NCBI GenBank assembly: GCA_019120515.1
Contig: DWUY01000290.1
Span: 1-34,532, forward strand
Origin: Candidatus Blautia avicola
GTDB lineage: Bacteria > Bacillota > Clostridia > Lachnospirales > Lachnospiraceae
DNA: 34,532 nucleotides
Reading direction: 5' to 3'
Position numbers and translations under genes: made by a program. The first letter of the stretch is position 1; each line of letters opens with the position of its first letter. The notes beneath the pieces are model-generated. The model searched no databases and had not been told where the DNA came from. It was given only the letters and a program-made list of their open reading frames with translations. Below, one piece after another: positions 6,528-32,750 of this stretch.

Positions 6528-6716
6528 CTTCCCGGGCTTATCCAATCGTTTCGGCTTCGCCTCACGATTGCTGCGATAACGCACAGCTCGCTGCTTCGCT
6601 GCTCGCTGTACTTGCCCGGTAAATGGTGCTGCGTGCCAGTGGCACGCGTTCAGCACGGACCGTAGCGGAGCGAAGACCTGCTCGTGCAAGCACGGCAGCC
6701 GCTTCCCGGGCTTATC
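6528..6716. repeat. GC-rich structured intergenic element, family 1 copy 1
   Basis: Bounded by 15-bp direct repeats CTTCCCGGGCTTATC (6528-6542, 6702-6716); hairpins CAATCGT/ACGATTG (6543-6570) and GTGCTGCGTGCC/GGCACG..CAGCAC (6626-6656); shares CAGCTC-N13-TCGCTGT, TTGCCCGGYAAATG and CGTGCAAGCACGGCAG with 17320-17421. Confidence 0.7.
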
Positions 6717-6721
6717 GCACA

Positions 6722-6754
6722 AAAAGAGCGCCGCCAGTGTTGGTGCGCTCTTTT
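6722..6754 (-). terminator. Intrinsic terminator downstream of the GntR-family gene
   Basis: AAAAGAGCGC...GCGCTCTTTT; on the minus strand it is followed by a T tract. Confidence 0.75.
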
Positions 6755-10663: not shown

Positions 10664-11416
10664 TTGAATAGTATGTTTCGTTTTATCATTATCTGTATCA
10701 TTGTGATCGGGTATCTGATCTTATCCATCCCCATACTTTTCGGCGAATGGATCCTGGGGAAATTTGATATGAGAAAAAAGGATATCAGCTCTCTGCGGAT
10801 CATCCAGGCAGTATTCCGGCTGATCCTGAAAGTTACCGGCGCGGACATCACCATCATCGGCCATGAAAAAGTTCCAACAGACCAGGCGGTTTTATATATC
10901 GGCAACCACAGAAGCTTTTTTGATATCCTTCTGACTTATGTCCTCTGTCCGGACACCACAGGCTATGTTGCCAAAAAAGAAATGGAGCCTATCCCTCTTC
11001 TTTCCCACTGGATGCGGTATCTCCACTGTCTCTTTCTGAACCGGAAAGATATCAAAGAAGGTCTGAAGACCATACTCACCGCTATAGAAGAAGTGAAAAA
11101 CGGCATATCCATCTGCATCTTTCCGGAAGGCACCAGAAACAAAGGAGACAGCGAACTGGAACTTCTGCCCTTCCACGAAGGAAGCTTTAAGATCGCTACC
11201 AAAACCGGATGTCCGGTAATCCCTATGGCCATCCACAATTCTGCGGAGATCTTTGAAGCACACTTTCCAAAGATCCGCCCCTGCAAGGTGGTAGTAGAAT
11301 ACGGAGATCCCATCTATCCCGATCAGCTCTCAAAAGAGGACAAAAAACATTTAGGCCAGTATACCCGGAACGTGATCCTGCAAATGCTGGAAAAACACCA
11401 GACAGCAGCAGCATAA
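10664..11416 (+). CDS. plsC: 1-acyl-sn-glycerol-3-phosphate acyltransferase
   Basis: IGNHRSFFDIL (HX4D) and FPEGTRNKGD motifs; start may be the ATG at 10673. Confidence 0.92.
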   Translation: MNSMFRFIIICIIVIGYLILSIPILFGEWILGKFDMRKKDISSLRIIQAVFRLILKVTGADITIIGHEKVPTDQAVLYIGNHRSFFDILLTYVLCPDTTGYVAKKEMEPIPLLSHWMRYLHCLFLNRKDIKEGLKTILTAIEEVKNGISICIFPEGTRNKGDSELELLPFHEGSFKIATKTGCPVIPMAIHNSAEIFEAHFPKIRPCKVVVEYGDPIYPDQLSKEDKKHLGQYTRNVILQMLEKHQTAAA

Positions 11417-11584
11417 AAAAGAAGGGAGCTGTCCCATTTATCATATTTCAGGAATATTTATACATTTTATGCCAATTTACCGGGCATCGCTTTAAGACCA
11501 CAGGCGCAAAGCAGCGCAGACTGAACAGCAAAATATATAAATCTTCTTGATTTTGATTAATGGGACAGTTCCCTTCCTTTTCTT
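11417..11584. repeat. Structured palindromic intergenic element, family 2 copy A (minus orientation relative to copy B)
   Basis: Outer arms GAAGGGAGCTGTCCCATTTATCA (11421-11443) and TGATTAATGGGACAGTTCCCTTC (11554-11576); reverse complement of 11435-11561 aligns without gaps to 28315-28441. Confidence 0.85.
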
Positions 11585-12322
11585 TTATATTCTTCCAAAG
11601 GAAACCTGCCTTTTGTGTTTTTTATGTCTCTTTCTCTTTACATCTCTGTTCTCCATGCAGGAGACAAATTCCACATGCCGGTCCATCCAGTCTCCGATCC
11701 ACCCTATGACTTTTCCCATAGTAAAGGCAGCCAGGACCGTTCCGATCCCCAGCCCTTTAATATGCCCAAGGAAGGTCCAGGTCATAAAGACGGTCAACGC
11801 CAGACAGGACACGTCAAAACAGATCTTCACCCTGGAATAGGCAAATCCCGTGATCTGAGAAAATTCCCGGGGAAAAAGATCCGTAGGCGCAATAGGCATC
11901 TTACATCGGTTAGCCAGAGCGATCCCAAAGCAGATCAGCAGATAACTGATGCAGAAATACAGGATCTGAAAGAAGATCCCCTTGGGCAGAAGTCCGATCC
12001 ATGCTTCATGGAGATCCACCGCTATACCGAAGAAAAATCCCACCACAAAACTGAGCAGATAGGGCAGATGTATCTTTCCCCGGAGAACAAACAGGGCTCC
12101 CACCAAGAGGGCCTGGAATATATAAGTCCAGGTTCCCAGGGAAACCTGAGGAAGCACCTGGTTAAAGGCATAGGGAACACTGGAAATGGCAGAAATCCCC
12201 GACCCGGAATACAGCATCAGCACGACTGCAAAACTGTTTACAAAGATCAAGGGGATCAGCGCCAGTTCCCCTCTGACCTGTACTTTTTTCTCTTTCATAA
12301 AACATAGAGCTGTTCCCTGCAT
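11585..12322 (-). CDS. YitT/YczE-like multi-pass membrane protein
   Basis: Multiple TM segments; NSFAVVLMLYSGSGISAISSVPYAFN...PIAPTDLFPREFSQITG resembles the YczE/YyaS/YitT group. Start uncertain. Confidence 0.7.
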   Translation of the reverse strand: MQGTALCFMKEKKVQVRGELALIPLIFVNSFAVVLMLYSGSGISAISSVPYAFNQVLPQVSLGTWTYIFQALLVGALFVLRGKIHLPYLLSFVVGFFFGIAVDLHEAWIGLLPKGIFFQILYFCISYLLICFGIALANRCKMPIAPTDLFPREFSQITGFAYSRVKICFDVSCLALTVFMTWTFLGHIKGLGIGTVLAAFTMGKVIGWIGDWMDRHVEFVSCMENRDVKRKRHKKHKRQVSFGRI

Positions 12323-17293: not shown

Positions 17294-17421
17294 AGGGATC
17301 GGCCCCGTCCGATCCCCGGGATACTCGGTCAGCTCACGGCACAGCCGTTCGCTGTCCGTTGCCCGGCAAATGCCTGCCCGTGCAAGCACGGCAGGCGCTT
17401 TCCGGGCGTATCGCATAAAAA
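17294..17421. repeat. GC-rich structured intergenic element, family 1 copy 2
   Basis: GGGATCGG/CCGATCCC hairpin (17295-17316), CAGCTC-N13-TCGCTGT (17330-17355), TTGCCCGGCAAATG, CTGCCCGTGCAAGCACGGCAG hairpin; shares blocks with 6580-6725. Confidence 0.7.
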
Positions 17422-17447
17422 GCGGCGCCGTGAGTCTTCACAGCGCC
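17416..17447 (-). terminator. Intrinsic terminator downstream of the aminotransferase gene
   Basis: Minus strand GGCGCTGTGAagacTCACGGCGCCGCTTTTT; a second 11-bp stem (17462-17492) lies just before it. Confidence 0.75.
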
Positions 17448-25208: not shown

Positions 25209-25922
25209 ATGGAAATGAATCACATTTTAATCGTGGAGGATGACAAAGATATCAGAGAAGGAGTGGGGATCTACCTGAAAAGCCAGGGATACCAGGTTTT
25301 CATGGCTGCTGACGGCGTGGAAGGTCTGGAAGTTCTGGACCAGGAAGAGATCCATCTGGCTATCGTGGACATTATGATGCCCCGTATGGACGGTATCACC
25401 ATGACCATGAAACTGAGAGAAAAACACGACTTCCCTGTGATCATGCTTTCCGCAAAGTCCGAGGAAGTAGATAAGGTCATGGGCCTGAACATCGGTGCAG
25501 ACGACTATGTGACAAAGCCTTTCACTCCCATGGAACTGATGGCAAGAGTGAATTCCCAGATGCGCCGCTACCGGAGATTCATGGAAAAACTCCAGGAAAA
25601 GGAAGCCCAGAATTCAGATACGGTTTATACCATCGGCGGTCTGGAAGTCAATGAAAGCACCTTTGAAGTCCGGGTAGACGGCGCTCCCGTTAAAATGACT
25701 CCCATGGAGTTTAAGATCCTCCTGTTGCTGATCAAAAATCCTGGCAGGGTTTTCTCGGCTGACGAAATTTACGAGCGGGTATGGAATGAACGGGCAGTAA
25801 ACACGGAAACCGTCATGGTCCATGTCCGTAACATTCGTGAAAAGATCGAGATCAACCCTAAGGAGCCAAAATATTTAAAGGTGGTGTGGGGAGTTGGATA
25901 CAAAATCGAAAAACAATCATAA
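25209..25922 (+). CDS. OmpR-family response regulator
   Basis: ILIVEDDKDIREGV, DIMMPRMDG, GADDYVTKPF receiver motifs and winged-helix C-terminus. Confidence 0.95.
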   Translation: MEMNHILIVEDDKDIREGVGIYLKSQGYQVFMAADGVEGLEVLDQEEIHLAIVDIMMPRMDGITMTMKLREKHDFPVIMLSAKSEEVDKVMGLNIGADDYVTKPFTPMELMARVNSQMRRYRRFMEKLQEKEAQNSDTVYTIGGLEVNESTFEVRVDGAPVKMTPMEFKILLLLIKNPGRVFSADEIYERVWNERAVNTETVMVHVRNIREKIEINPKEPKYLKVVWGVGYKIEKQS

Positions 25923-28299
25923 ACTGGCAGTGCTGATCATCGCTCTGGTGATCCTCCTGCCTTCTCTGGCCATGATGTTTATCAGGCCGCATTATATCAG
26001 CCGTCAGAAAGAAGACGGACAGATTTCCTACTCAAATACAGACTTAATGGACCAGCTTGTAAAAGATACTTATGTCCTCTACGCGGAGGAATATCAGAGA
26101 GAACATGGAAGCGACGTGACGCCCTTTGAGATCTTTTTCCAGAGAGATACCTCCGTAGAGGAAAACACCCCAGAGGAAGATACCTCGGATAAAGAAGCCT
26201 CCGGCGACTCTGCTTCCGACAGCCCTTCCCCGGAAAACAGCCAGACCCAGGATCCGGCATCTGGAGAAAACGCCTCCGATGCTGCATCTTCAGAAGAATC
26301 TACCAGTGATCCATCTGAGGAGACGGCCTCTTTAGAAGAAACCTCCGAAGAGACTTATGAAGATGATATAAGCAGCGTTGCCTATGCTTTCCAGGACAAT
26401 ATGTACAGCGAATGGAGAGATGATTTCTCTGATATCCGCTCTTTTATTGAATATGAGGTGCTGGACGGAAAGGGGACTACTCTGGACACCAACCAGTCTT
26501 TGGCAGATTCCCAGGAATCTCTCTATAATTCCCTGAGCAATATCCAGACCAATTCCGTATTGCACGCAGACAGCGGATACGCCTTTGTGGCTGTGATCAA
26601 ATATGGAAAAAAGGGAAATATTGAATCCACGACTTTTCTTACCCATGAAAGAGATAACGCCTCTCAGGCTTTAAACGAGCTGGCCCGGTCAGATCCCGGA
26701 GAATATCTCCGTGACTACTATTATTATTCCGGCGCTTTCCAGCCTCCTCAGGACAGGATCTACTGCTTCGCCATGACCCAGACGGCTCTGGAATCTTATT
26801 CTTCCGATTATGATCCTTCCATTTTGTATGCCGACGGCTACAGCACAGGGGCTGATCTGGTGGTCCTTTTTATGACATTTGTGGGATTTGTATGTGCCGC
26901 CGCTCTTCTCCTTCCTTTTATAAAGGCCTTAGAGACCGGAAATGAAAAAATTTTTTCCTACCCCTTTGAGCCGGTATGCCTGATCGCTCTTTGTGTGATC
27001 AGTGTTGCAACCAGCATAACAGCCAATCCCGGCACTCTGGATCATCAGTCTATCCGAAGTGTGCTCATAAGCATAGGTCTCTATGAAAAAGCGGCTACAG
27101 TGATCCAATACCTGTGGGGACTTTTAGGCTGGGTACTGATCTTTGCCGTATGTTACTGGGCGGCAGCCTGTTTCCGGCATATTTTCACCATGGGGCCGAA
27201 AGAATATCTCCATAAGCGAGTCCTGACCTACCGTTTCTGGCCCTGGATCACCAAATGGTGCCGCCGGATCTATCAGGGACTCCTTCATGTAGATCTCCGG
27301 GACAATGCTTCCCGGATACTGTTAAAACTGGTCCTTATCAACTTTATCATACTGGGCTTTATCAGCCTTCTATGGTTCTGGGGACTGGCGGCTCTGATCG
27401 TTTACTCCGTGATCCTCTTCTTCCTTCTGCGAAAATATGTGCGGAAGGTCCAGGATCAGTATCAGCTTCTCCTTCAGGCCACCAATGAATTGGCCCAGGG
27501 AAATCTAAACGGAACCATACCGGAAGACCTGGGCGTCTTTGAACCTTTCCGGGAAGAGATCGATAAGATCCGCGCCGGTTTCCGCAAGGCGGTAGACGAG
27601 GAAGTAAAAAGTACCAGGATGAAGACCGACCTGATCACCAATGTGTCTCATGACCTGAAAACTCCCCTTACTGCCATTATTACTTATGTGGATCTGTTAA
27701 AAGAGCCTGATCTTCCCAGGGAAACCCAGGAGAAATATATCCGGATCCTGGATCAGAAAGCCAACCGTCTGAAGCTGCTCATCGAAGACCTCTTCGAGAT
27801 CAGCAAGGCTACCAGCAAAACTGTACAGCTTCATATCGTAGATGTGGACATTGTCAGTCTTCTCCGCCAGGTAAAGCTGGAACTTCAGGACAAGATCGAT
27901 GCCACAGACCTGTCCTTCCGCTGGCAGTTTCCGGAAGAAAAAGTAATCCTTCCTCTGGATTCCCAGCGCACTTACCGGGTATTTGAAAATCTGCTGGTCA
28001 ACATTACAAAATATGCTATGCCTCATACAAGGGTGTACATCAACATGGAAGATACGGAAAATCATGTGAAGATCTCTATGAAGAATATCTCAGCTACAGA
28101 GCTGACTTTTAACCCCAGCGAGATCACCGAACGTTTTGTAAGAGGAGACGTCTCCAGAAATACCGAGGGAAGCGGTCTGGGCCTGGCTATTGCCAAAAGC
28201 TTTACCGAACTTCAGGGCGGCAGGCTGGAAGTTTTCACAGACGCGGATCTTTTCACAGTGGAGATCACCTTTTTAAAGACCTCCAAAAAGACGGATTAA
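25894..28299 (+). CDS. Membrane sensor histidine kinase
   Basis: Overlaps the response regulator by 29 nt (TTG start); TMs, HAMP-like region, H-box NVSHDLKTPLTAIITYVDLL, G-box EGSGLGLAIAKSF. Confidence 0.94.
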   Translation: MDTKSKNNHKLAVLIIALVILLPSLAMMFIRPHYISRQKEDGQISYSNTDLMDQLVKDTYVLYAEEYQREHGSDVTPFEIFFQRDTSVEENTPEEDTSDKEASGDSASDSPSPENSQTQDPASGENASDAASSEESTSDPSEETASLEETSEETYEDDISSVAYAFQDNMYSEWRDDFSDIRSFIEYEVLDGKGTTLDTNQSLADSQESLYNSLSNIQTNSVLHADSGYAFVAVIKYGKKGNIESTTFLTHERDNASQALNELARSDPGEYLRDYYYYSGAFQPPQDRIYCFAMTQTALESYSSDYDPSILYADGYSTGADLVVLFMTFVGFVCAAALLLPFIKALETGNEKIFSYPFEPVCLIALCVISVATSITANPGTLDHQSIRSVLISIGLYEKAATVIQYLWGLLGWVLIFAVCYWAAACFRHIFTMGPKEYLHKRVLTYRFWPWITKWCRRIYQGLLHVDLRDNASRILLKLVLINFIILGFISLLWFWGLAALIVYSVILFFLLRKYVRKVQDQYQLLLQATNELAQGNLNGTIPEDLGVFEPFREEIDKIRAGFRKAVDEEVKSTRMKTDLITNVSHDLKTPLTAIITYVDLLKEPDLPRETQEKYIRILDQKANRLKLLIEDLFEISKATSKTVQLHIVDVDIVSLLRQVKLELQDKIDATDLSFRWQFPEEKVILPLDSQRTYRVFENLLVNITKYAMPHTRVYINMEDTENHVKISMKNISATELTFNPSEITERFVRGDVSRNTEGSGLGLAIAKSFTELQGGRLEVFTDADLFTVEITFLKTSKKTD

Positions 28300-28458
28300 C
28301 AAAGAAGCTGCCGCATTATTCAAAGTTAAGAACATTTATACATTTTACTGCTCAGTCTGCGCAGCTTTGAGCCTATGGTCTCAAAGCTATGCTCGACAAA
28401 TCCGAATAAAATCTGTAAATATTCTTGAACTATGAGTAATGCGGCAGCTTCTATATTT
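28300..28458. repeat. Structured palindromic intergenic element, family 2 copy B
   Basis: Perfect 16-bp outer arms AGAAGCTGCCGCATTA (28303-28318) / TAATGCGGCAGCTTCT (28437-28452); internal perfect 9-bp hairpin AGCTTTGAG/CTCAAAGCT (28363-28388); homologous to copy A. Confidence 0.85.
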
Positions 28459-28986
28459 TTATTTTCCTTCTTCGGTCTCTATCTGGCAAGCCTTCATGGC
28501 TTTCAGAGCATTGTTGTGGCTCTCGGGAGTCACCCCTGCGCAGCAGGCAGGATCTACCCGTACCACCGCCTCAGGCAGGGCAGCTTTCAGGATCATGGCG
28601 TTGGAGATCACGCAGATATCCGTGCACAGCCCGATCAGCTCAATCTCCTCATATTCTTTTTCTCTGGCGATCCCGGCCAGTTCCATACTGCCAAAAGTGG
28701 GCTTTTCCAGAATCCTGCAGCCCTTCGCCAGTTCTTTCAAGCTGCCGTCAAGTTCCCATCCTTCCGTTCCCTTTACACAGTGAGGCACCGGAAGCTTTCG
28801 TCCCTCCTGGGTCATCAGATAATCTTTGTGATGGGTATCCTTTGTAAAGACAACGTCTGCTCCCTGTTCTTTGGCTTTCCGTATTTTCTCAGCCGCCGGC
28901 CCTACGATCTTCACTGCTTCTTCTGTTCCCAGGGCGCCGTCAATAAAGTCTTTCTGCATATCCACCACTACTAATAATTTCTTCAT
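28459..28986 (-). CDS. Isochorismatase-family cysteine hydrolase (nicotinamidase-like)
   Basis: LLVVVDMQKDFIDGALG, LIGLCTDICVISNAM. Confidence 0.9.
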   Translation of the reverse strand: MKKLLVVVDMQKDFIDGALGTEEAVKIVGPAAEKIRKAKEQGADVVFTKDTHHKDYLMTQEGRKLPVPHCVKGTEGWELDGSLKELAKGCRILEKPTFGSMELAGIAREKEYEEIELIGLCTDICVISNAMILKAALPEAVVRVDPACCAGVTPESHNNALKAMKACQIETEEGK

Positions 28987-32649: not shown

Positions 32650-32693
32650 CGGACAATGCCTCTACCAGATACTTCAAAGGAGTCTCCTATAAA

Positions 32694-32750
32694 AAAAGAC
32701 TGCCTTACCCGGAGCCTTTCAAAAAGCTTCCGGATAAGGCAGTCTTCTTT
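32694..32750. terminator. Bidirectional intrinsic terminator between convergent genes
   Basis: AAGACTGCCTTA-C-CCGG...CCGG-A-TAAGGCAGTCTT with A/T-rich flanks. Confidence 0.8.

Follow-up and report, generated by a model that had tools for sequence, protein, structure and literature searches.

What kind of element fills the narrow gap between two convergent genes at about 28.4 kb, and recurs in the opposite orientation between a second convergent pair, is the question raised by this locus of Candidatus Blautia avicola, here analysed as a 34,532-nt window (contig DWUY01000290.1, positions 1 to 34,532; assembly GCA_019120515.1). A first-pass annotation of the sequence had offered either a folded element, acting as a noncoding RNA or as a bidirectional 3'-end element, or a palindromic mobile (MITE/REP-like) element. 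Judged by sequence comparison, it is very probably a terminator-replacing MITE with IS1182-type ends that occurs in part of the genus Blautia, its terminal stem now serving as a putative terminator, bidirectional at copy B. The direct observations on which we build concern the repeat family and its distribution, the similarity of its ends, filled and unfilled sites, gene context, covariation, and internal deletion and inversion. The relevant features of the window are as follows.

10664 to 11416, plus strand: 1-acylglycerol-3-phosphate acyltransferase family gene, upstream of copy A
11425 to 11572, minus strand: MITE copy A, 148 nt, in the orientation opposite to copy B, flanked by A-rich and T-rich tracts
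11585 to 12322, minus strand: gene for a DUF6198 membrane protein, convergent on copy A
25894 to 28299, plus strand: sensor histidine kinase gene (HisKA and HATPase_c), upstream of copy B, its stop codon 4 nt before the copy
28303 to 28318, plus strand: left arm of the outer stem of copy B, AGAAGCTGCCGCATTA, in perfect 16-bp pairing; the family consensus end is GGGGCTGTCGCATTA
28304 to 28451, plus strand: MITE copy B, 148 nt, quasi-palindromic, occupying the gap between two convergent genes
28363 to 28388, plus strand: inner hairpin of copy B, AGCTTTGAG-CCTATGGT-CTCAAAGCT (N8 loop), present in most family members
28437 to 28452, minus strand: right arm of the outer stem of copy B
28453 to 28466, plus strand: T-rich tract ATATTTTTATTTTC 3' of the copy B stem, read directly
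28459 to 28986, minus strand: isochorismatase-domain hydrolase gene, convergent on copy B and ending 7 nt after it

The 148-nt limits of both copies were set by alignment to the family consensus. The homology that the first-pass annotation had counted by hand was reproduced, 28315-28441 being identical to the reverse complement of 11435-11561 at 103 of 127 positions without gaps, while the best ungapped match of the same 127-mer elsewhere in the window reaches 62. The 16-bp arms and the 9-bp inner hairpin of copy B are perfect, as had been described, and the paired stem differences are real, with CTGCCGC/GCGGCAG in B as against CTGTCCC/GGGACAG in A. Copy B does fill a convergent gap, between gene ends at 28299 and 28459, and copy A fills another. 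Folded as RNA, copy B reaches -63.6 kcal/mol (z -10.0) and copy A a z of about -7 on either strand.

Both copies belong to a larger repeat family. The own genome yielded 69 BLAST matches (both strands counted), which places the repeat in roughly 40 places, and 45-68 matches were obtained in each of six related Blautia genomes and fewer in six more. Thirteen of the 20 genomes of the genus searched carry the repeat, with 1 to 68 matches, and seven lack it; outside Blautia, none was found among about 296 other genera of the family (sample of 298 genomes from 297 genera). Among named records, almost all of those sharing an exact 30-nt core belong to Blautia, mostly from the chicken gut judging by species names (Candidatus B. 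pullistercoris, stercorigallinarum, merdipullorum, stercoripullorum and stercoravium; Blautia sp. An81), together with a single uncultured Firmicutes genome and a draft carrying the label Mediterraneibacter; no viral contig contained an exact 29-mer of the core. The family consensus is quasi-palindromic, and its ends read GGGGCTGTCGCATTARTCA. Non-coding, 148 nt long, with arms pairing end to end and a presence in roughly 40 places at home and dozens in several Blautia, the repeat has the properties of a MITE, and its copy number, patchy distribution, terminal inverted repeats and filled and unfilled sites bear out the palindromic mobile element among the options first proposed. The family is real and high-copy and, as far as a literature search of limited reach can tell, apparently unreported. 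It resembles RUP, BOX and other bacterial MITEs (PMC10969869, PMC3049150) in being non-coding, intergenic and, like most of them, under 200 nt, and in having terminal inverted repeats and transcripts that fold into hairpins; it differs in that RUP and BOX make target duplications and that terminator replacement is not reported in these two papers for any of them.

The ends of the MITE are of IS1182 type, because they are similar to those of IS1182-family insertion sequences of the same genus, with which the consensus end GGGGCTGTCGCATTA has 10-16 bases in common. IS1182 elements of Blautia end in GGGGCTATCGG and GGGGCTGTCGG, and one element in genome G007 carries GGGGCTGTCGCA at one end and GGGGCTGTCGCTTTAA at the other, matching the MITE at 12/12 and 15/16 positions. 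The two transposases checked, at loci L058 and L066, exceed the NCBIfam IS1182 cut-off. The Blautia IS1182 sequences (L058, L061, L062, L066) have ends GGGGCTRTCG and several of their copies are bordered by A-rich and T-rich flanks, as the MITE is, whereas they are about 2 kb long, contain a transposase gene and have interiors that do not match. We infer that an IS1182 transposase moved the MITE. A pattern search for full-end copies returned only MITEs and short derivatives among the examined loci, with no autonomous element bearing the full 15-nt consensus end, and no PF13751 transposase was seen in three MITE-rich genomes (G001, G014, G018), all of which are drafts. The IS1182 element of the own genome was rejected as the direct parent, its ends sharing only about 10 nt with the MITE and its interior nothing. 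As a separate observation, IS1182 copies L062, L078 and L081 in G008 are flanked by A-rich/T-rich tracts, for instance AAAAGTAA before and TTACTTTT after the insertion sequence, as if insertion had hit palindromic or terminator-like sites.

Orthologous places that are filled in one genome and unfilled in another were then compared. At six to seven independent sites, a related genome has an ordinary intrinsic terminator where the MITE sits. In the closest informative pair, G000 L004 (filled) and G014 L312 (unfilled), whose flanks are 98/95% identical, the unfilled site reads GAAAAGG-GAGACAGTATATAAGCTGTCT-CCTTTTC and its middle is swapped for the MITE in G000. There, the terminator hairpin GAAAAGGGAGACAGTATATAAGCTGTCTCCTTTTC of G014 corresponds to GAAAAGGAGCTGTCG...GCGGCAGCCCCTTTC in G000, so that the MITE has taken the place of the upper stem and loop and the stem base is retained together with its A and T tracts. 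Further replacement pairs are L274/L293, L230/L278, L276/L322 and L257/L305, as well as site B compared with G018 and G002. The replaced segments are strong hairpins (z -8 to -10, mononucleotide shuffles); weaker pairs are L009/L161 (z -4.9) and L221/L310 (z -0.5). Beyond the MITE, the two flanks pair with each other at a higher frequency than shuffled ones do, which is what survival of the base of the target stem would produce. Inspection by eye showed no consistent direct repeats in the flanks, the flank similarity being inverted rather than direct. In L004/L312 and the other pairs, as in IS1272, the target stem-loop is gone and the MITE is in its place, with no target duplication.

Replacement of terminator stem-loops without target duplication is established for IS1272 and TnSha1 of staphylococci (PMC5678879, PMC4923244), and stem-loop-replacing transposition is known for a few IS1182-family elements. 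These two likewise target terminator hairpins, remove the hairpin in part, and may hit one terminator repeatedly and in both orientations. They differ from the MITE in being autonomous or composite and in encoding transposase, whereas the MITE is gene-free, only 148 nt long, almost wholly palindromic and present in several dozen copies per genome. Copies A and B represent a 148-nt non-autonomous MITE confined to part of Blautia; by this analogy, its insertion would swap out a stem-loop, in most cases an intrinsic terminator's hairpin. The foot of the former stem and its A/T tracts would be kept and no target duplication left, after which the paired ends of the MITE and the inherited T tract would take on the terminator role. 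A convergent gap such as 28299-28459 would then be served by termination in both directions. Later, the outer stem would stay paired while the interior decays, is deleted or inverts.

Gene context is in keeping with such a role. Among the 122 MITE copies with both neighbours called, 54 lie in convergent, 64 in codirectional and four in divergent gaps, none lies inside a gene, and the median distance to a gene end is about 27 nt. The remaining gaps of 60-600 nt in these loci number about 59 convergent, 184 codirectional and 67 divergent (Fisher P 2e-7 for convergent and 5e-7 for divergent gaps; both approximate, because the gene calls come from our own codon-usage model and the background from the same loci). 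Many copies combine a GC-rich outer stem with a T-rich 3' flank; in codirectional copies, a run of at least four T is found in 56% of 3' flanks as against 31% for A on the 5' side, the means of the two tracts not differing significantly. The minus-strand tail at copy B, TTGTTAATCC, is a poor T tract. A terminator scanner returned no canonical short-loop terminator at copy A or B, because the loop of the MITE is far longer than the scanner allows. The proposal that the MITE stem may act as a terminator draws on position, structure and replacement. The SPRITE repeat (PMC3049150) is comparable: it too is small and interspersed, has a long terminator-like stem, lies near gene 3' ends with enrichment between convergent genes, and has been proposed as a co-opted terminator. 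Its sole inverted end is AAAA/TTTT, however, and its authors found neither an insertion-sequence relative nor unfilled sites, whereas the ends of the MITE match IS1182 and unfilled sites with terminators were observed.

The same location could alternatively reflect tolerance, the MITE being found at 3' ends since insertion there is harmless, and its arms being matched by replication template switching within the palindrome instead of by selected pairing. Pneumococcal repeats, similarly enriched between convergent genes, have been interpreted in this way (PMC3049150). Among 42 copies, 13 of the 15 pairs of the outer stem show changes on both sides, and the whole structure has 52 double-change cells compared with 15 in shuffles and at most 15 with the partner slid, a value reached in 0 of 500 shuffles. 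When copies were collapsed by flank similarity to 63 independent sites, 23 matched double departures were counted at positions 5-15, as against 5.9 +- 2.0 with the arms shuffled (maximum 14 in 2000 shuffles); positions 1-4 were excluded because the outermost pairs may derive from the target stem. In favour of selection, G-U pairs outnumber A-C mismatches by 55:23 on the transcribed strand (permutation P 0.0004) and convergent gaps show no preference, but the excess weakens once the interior is used to control for mutational strand bias (Fisher P 0.06 to 0.16). This polarity is therefore not taken as decisive, part of the bias being present in the interior as well, and mutational strand bias accounts for it in part under tolerance.

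Two processes could thus keep the arms matched, namely selection for a paired transcript or arm-to-arm copying in the palindrome. Several pairs of orthologous sites carry the MITE in opposite orientations with distinctive arms matching, which suggests inversion in place; in L247:2632-2783 versus L183:1316-1462 the flanks of the inverted MITE are 97.7% identical, and this case demonstrates that arm-to-arm exchange happens. The outermost 27 nt on each side (consensus positions 1-27 and their mirror) diverge 4-5 times more than the interior, largely independently of interior divergence and even in copies with a consensus interior, and the ends of orthologous MITEs saturate quickly. Such arms, about four times more diverged whatever the interior, would fit a mutational hot spot. 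Internally deleted forms in which both arms are kept as a short hairpin occur at about ten orthologous sites and some fifteen other places, and at one site most of the MITE has been lost, apparently between GTGAC repeats. Under tolerance alone there is no reason to expect a terminator hairpin at the corresponding position of the unfilled site, and the short GC-rich stem, flanked by T tracts, that internally deleted copies retain fits it poorly; we consider tolerance possible, if rather unlikely. Selection rather than templated mutation probably keeps the stem paired; the selection for folding put forward in the first-pass annotation is supported by the covariation, a signal not fully separable from palindrome-templated mutation.

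Returning to terminator replacement, we lean slightly towards a broader reading, in which a terminator-specific MITE has rewritten dozens of 3' ends per genome in part of Blautia, with stems that evolve fast yet stay paired, by RNA-level selection or templated correction, and end as ordinary-looking terminators. If true, this would represent an ongoing mobile-element origin of bacterial terminators. A recent review called a terminator function of MITEs 'conceivable' (PMC10969869); here a target mechanism of published type is seen in a non-autonomous form, with unusually complete sequence-level evidence for terminator takeover. Since comparative genomics captures the target, the product and its subsequent decay locus by locus, terminator turnover by a mobile element becomes traceable site by site. 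Dozens of natural hairpins become available as well, with the flanking genes as reference for dating compensatory change, in-situ inversion and internal deletion. A high copy number at low cost would also be explained if insertion spares the host termination signal.

A structured noncoding RNA family with its own function, as a regulatory small RNA or a 3'-UTR stability element, would account for the strong folding, the conserved interior hairpin and the strong covariation, and is nevertheless very improbable. The dozens of copies lie beside unrelated genes, seven genomes of the genus have none, both orientations occur at orthologous sites, and the interior is often lost, the deleted copies persisting. 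No promoter-like site above chance was detected at the MITE, and Rfam gave no match in the window at the gathering threshold and, at E <= 1, only irrelevant sub-threshold matches to long-hairpin plant microRNA models. The element had indeed been described at the outset as no named Rfam family; of the options offered then, the mobile-element and 3'-end ideas hold together, and a dedicated noncoding RNA gene is unsupported. A REP/BIME or REPIN-type repeat mobilised by a RAYT (TnpA-REP) transposase instead of an IS1182-type enzyme would share the short palindromic intergenic form and high copy number, and is highly unlikely given the 148-nt length, IS1182-type ends and hairpin replacement, which to our knowledge fall outside the REP pattern.

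Other repeats were noted in passing. At 6660-6726 and 17356-17422 (82% identical) the window holds a different intergenic repeat, about 67 nt long, GC-rich and with an AAAAAG end, and similar text follows a terminator in L322 (G014:C27). Yet another repeat, roughly 170-180 nt long and with ATGATACC/GGTATCAT as its ends, contains a GGGGGC...GCCCCC hairpin; it is inserted to the right of site B in G014 (L298 / L117, G014:C6) and in L257 (G019), and is absent from the window. Finally, a near-perfect 28-bp inverted repeat at 32692-32750, with a 3-nt spacer, an A tract before it and a T-rich stretch after it, lies outside the MITE family and resembles an ordinary strong terminator.
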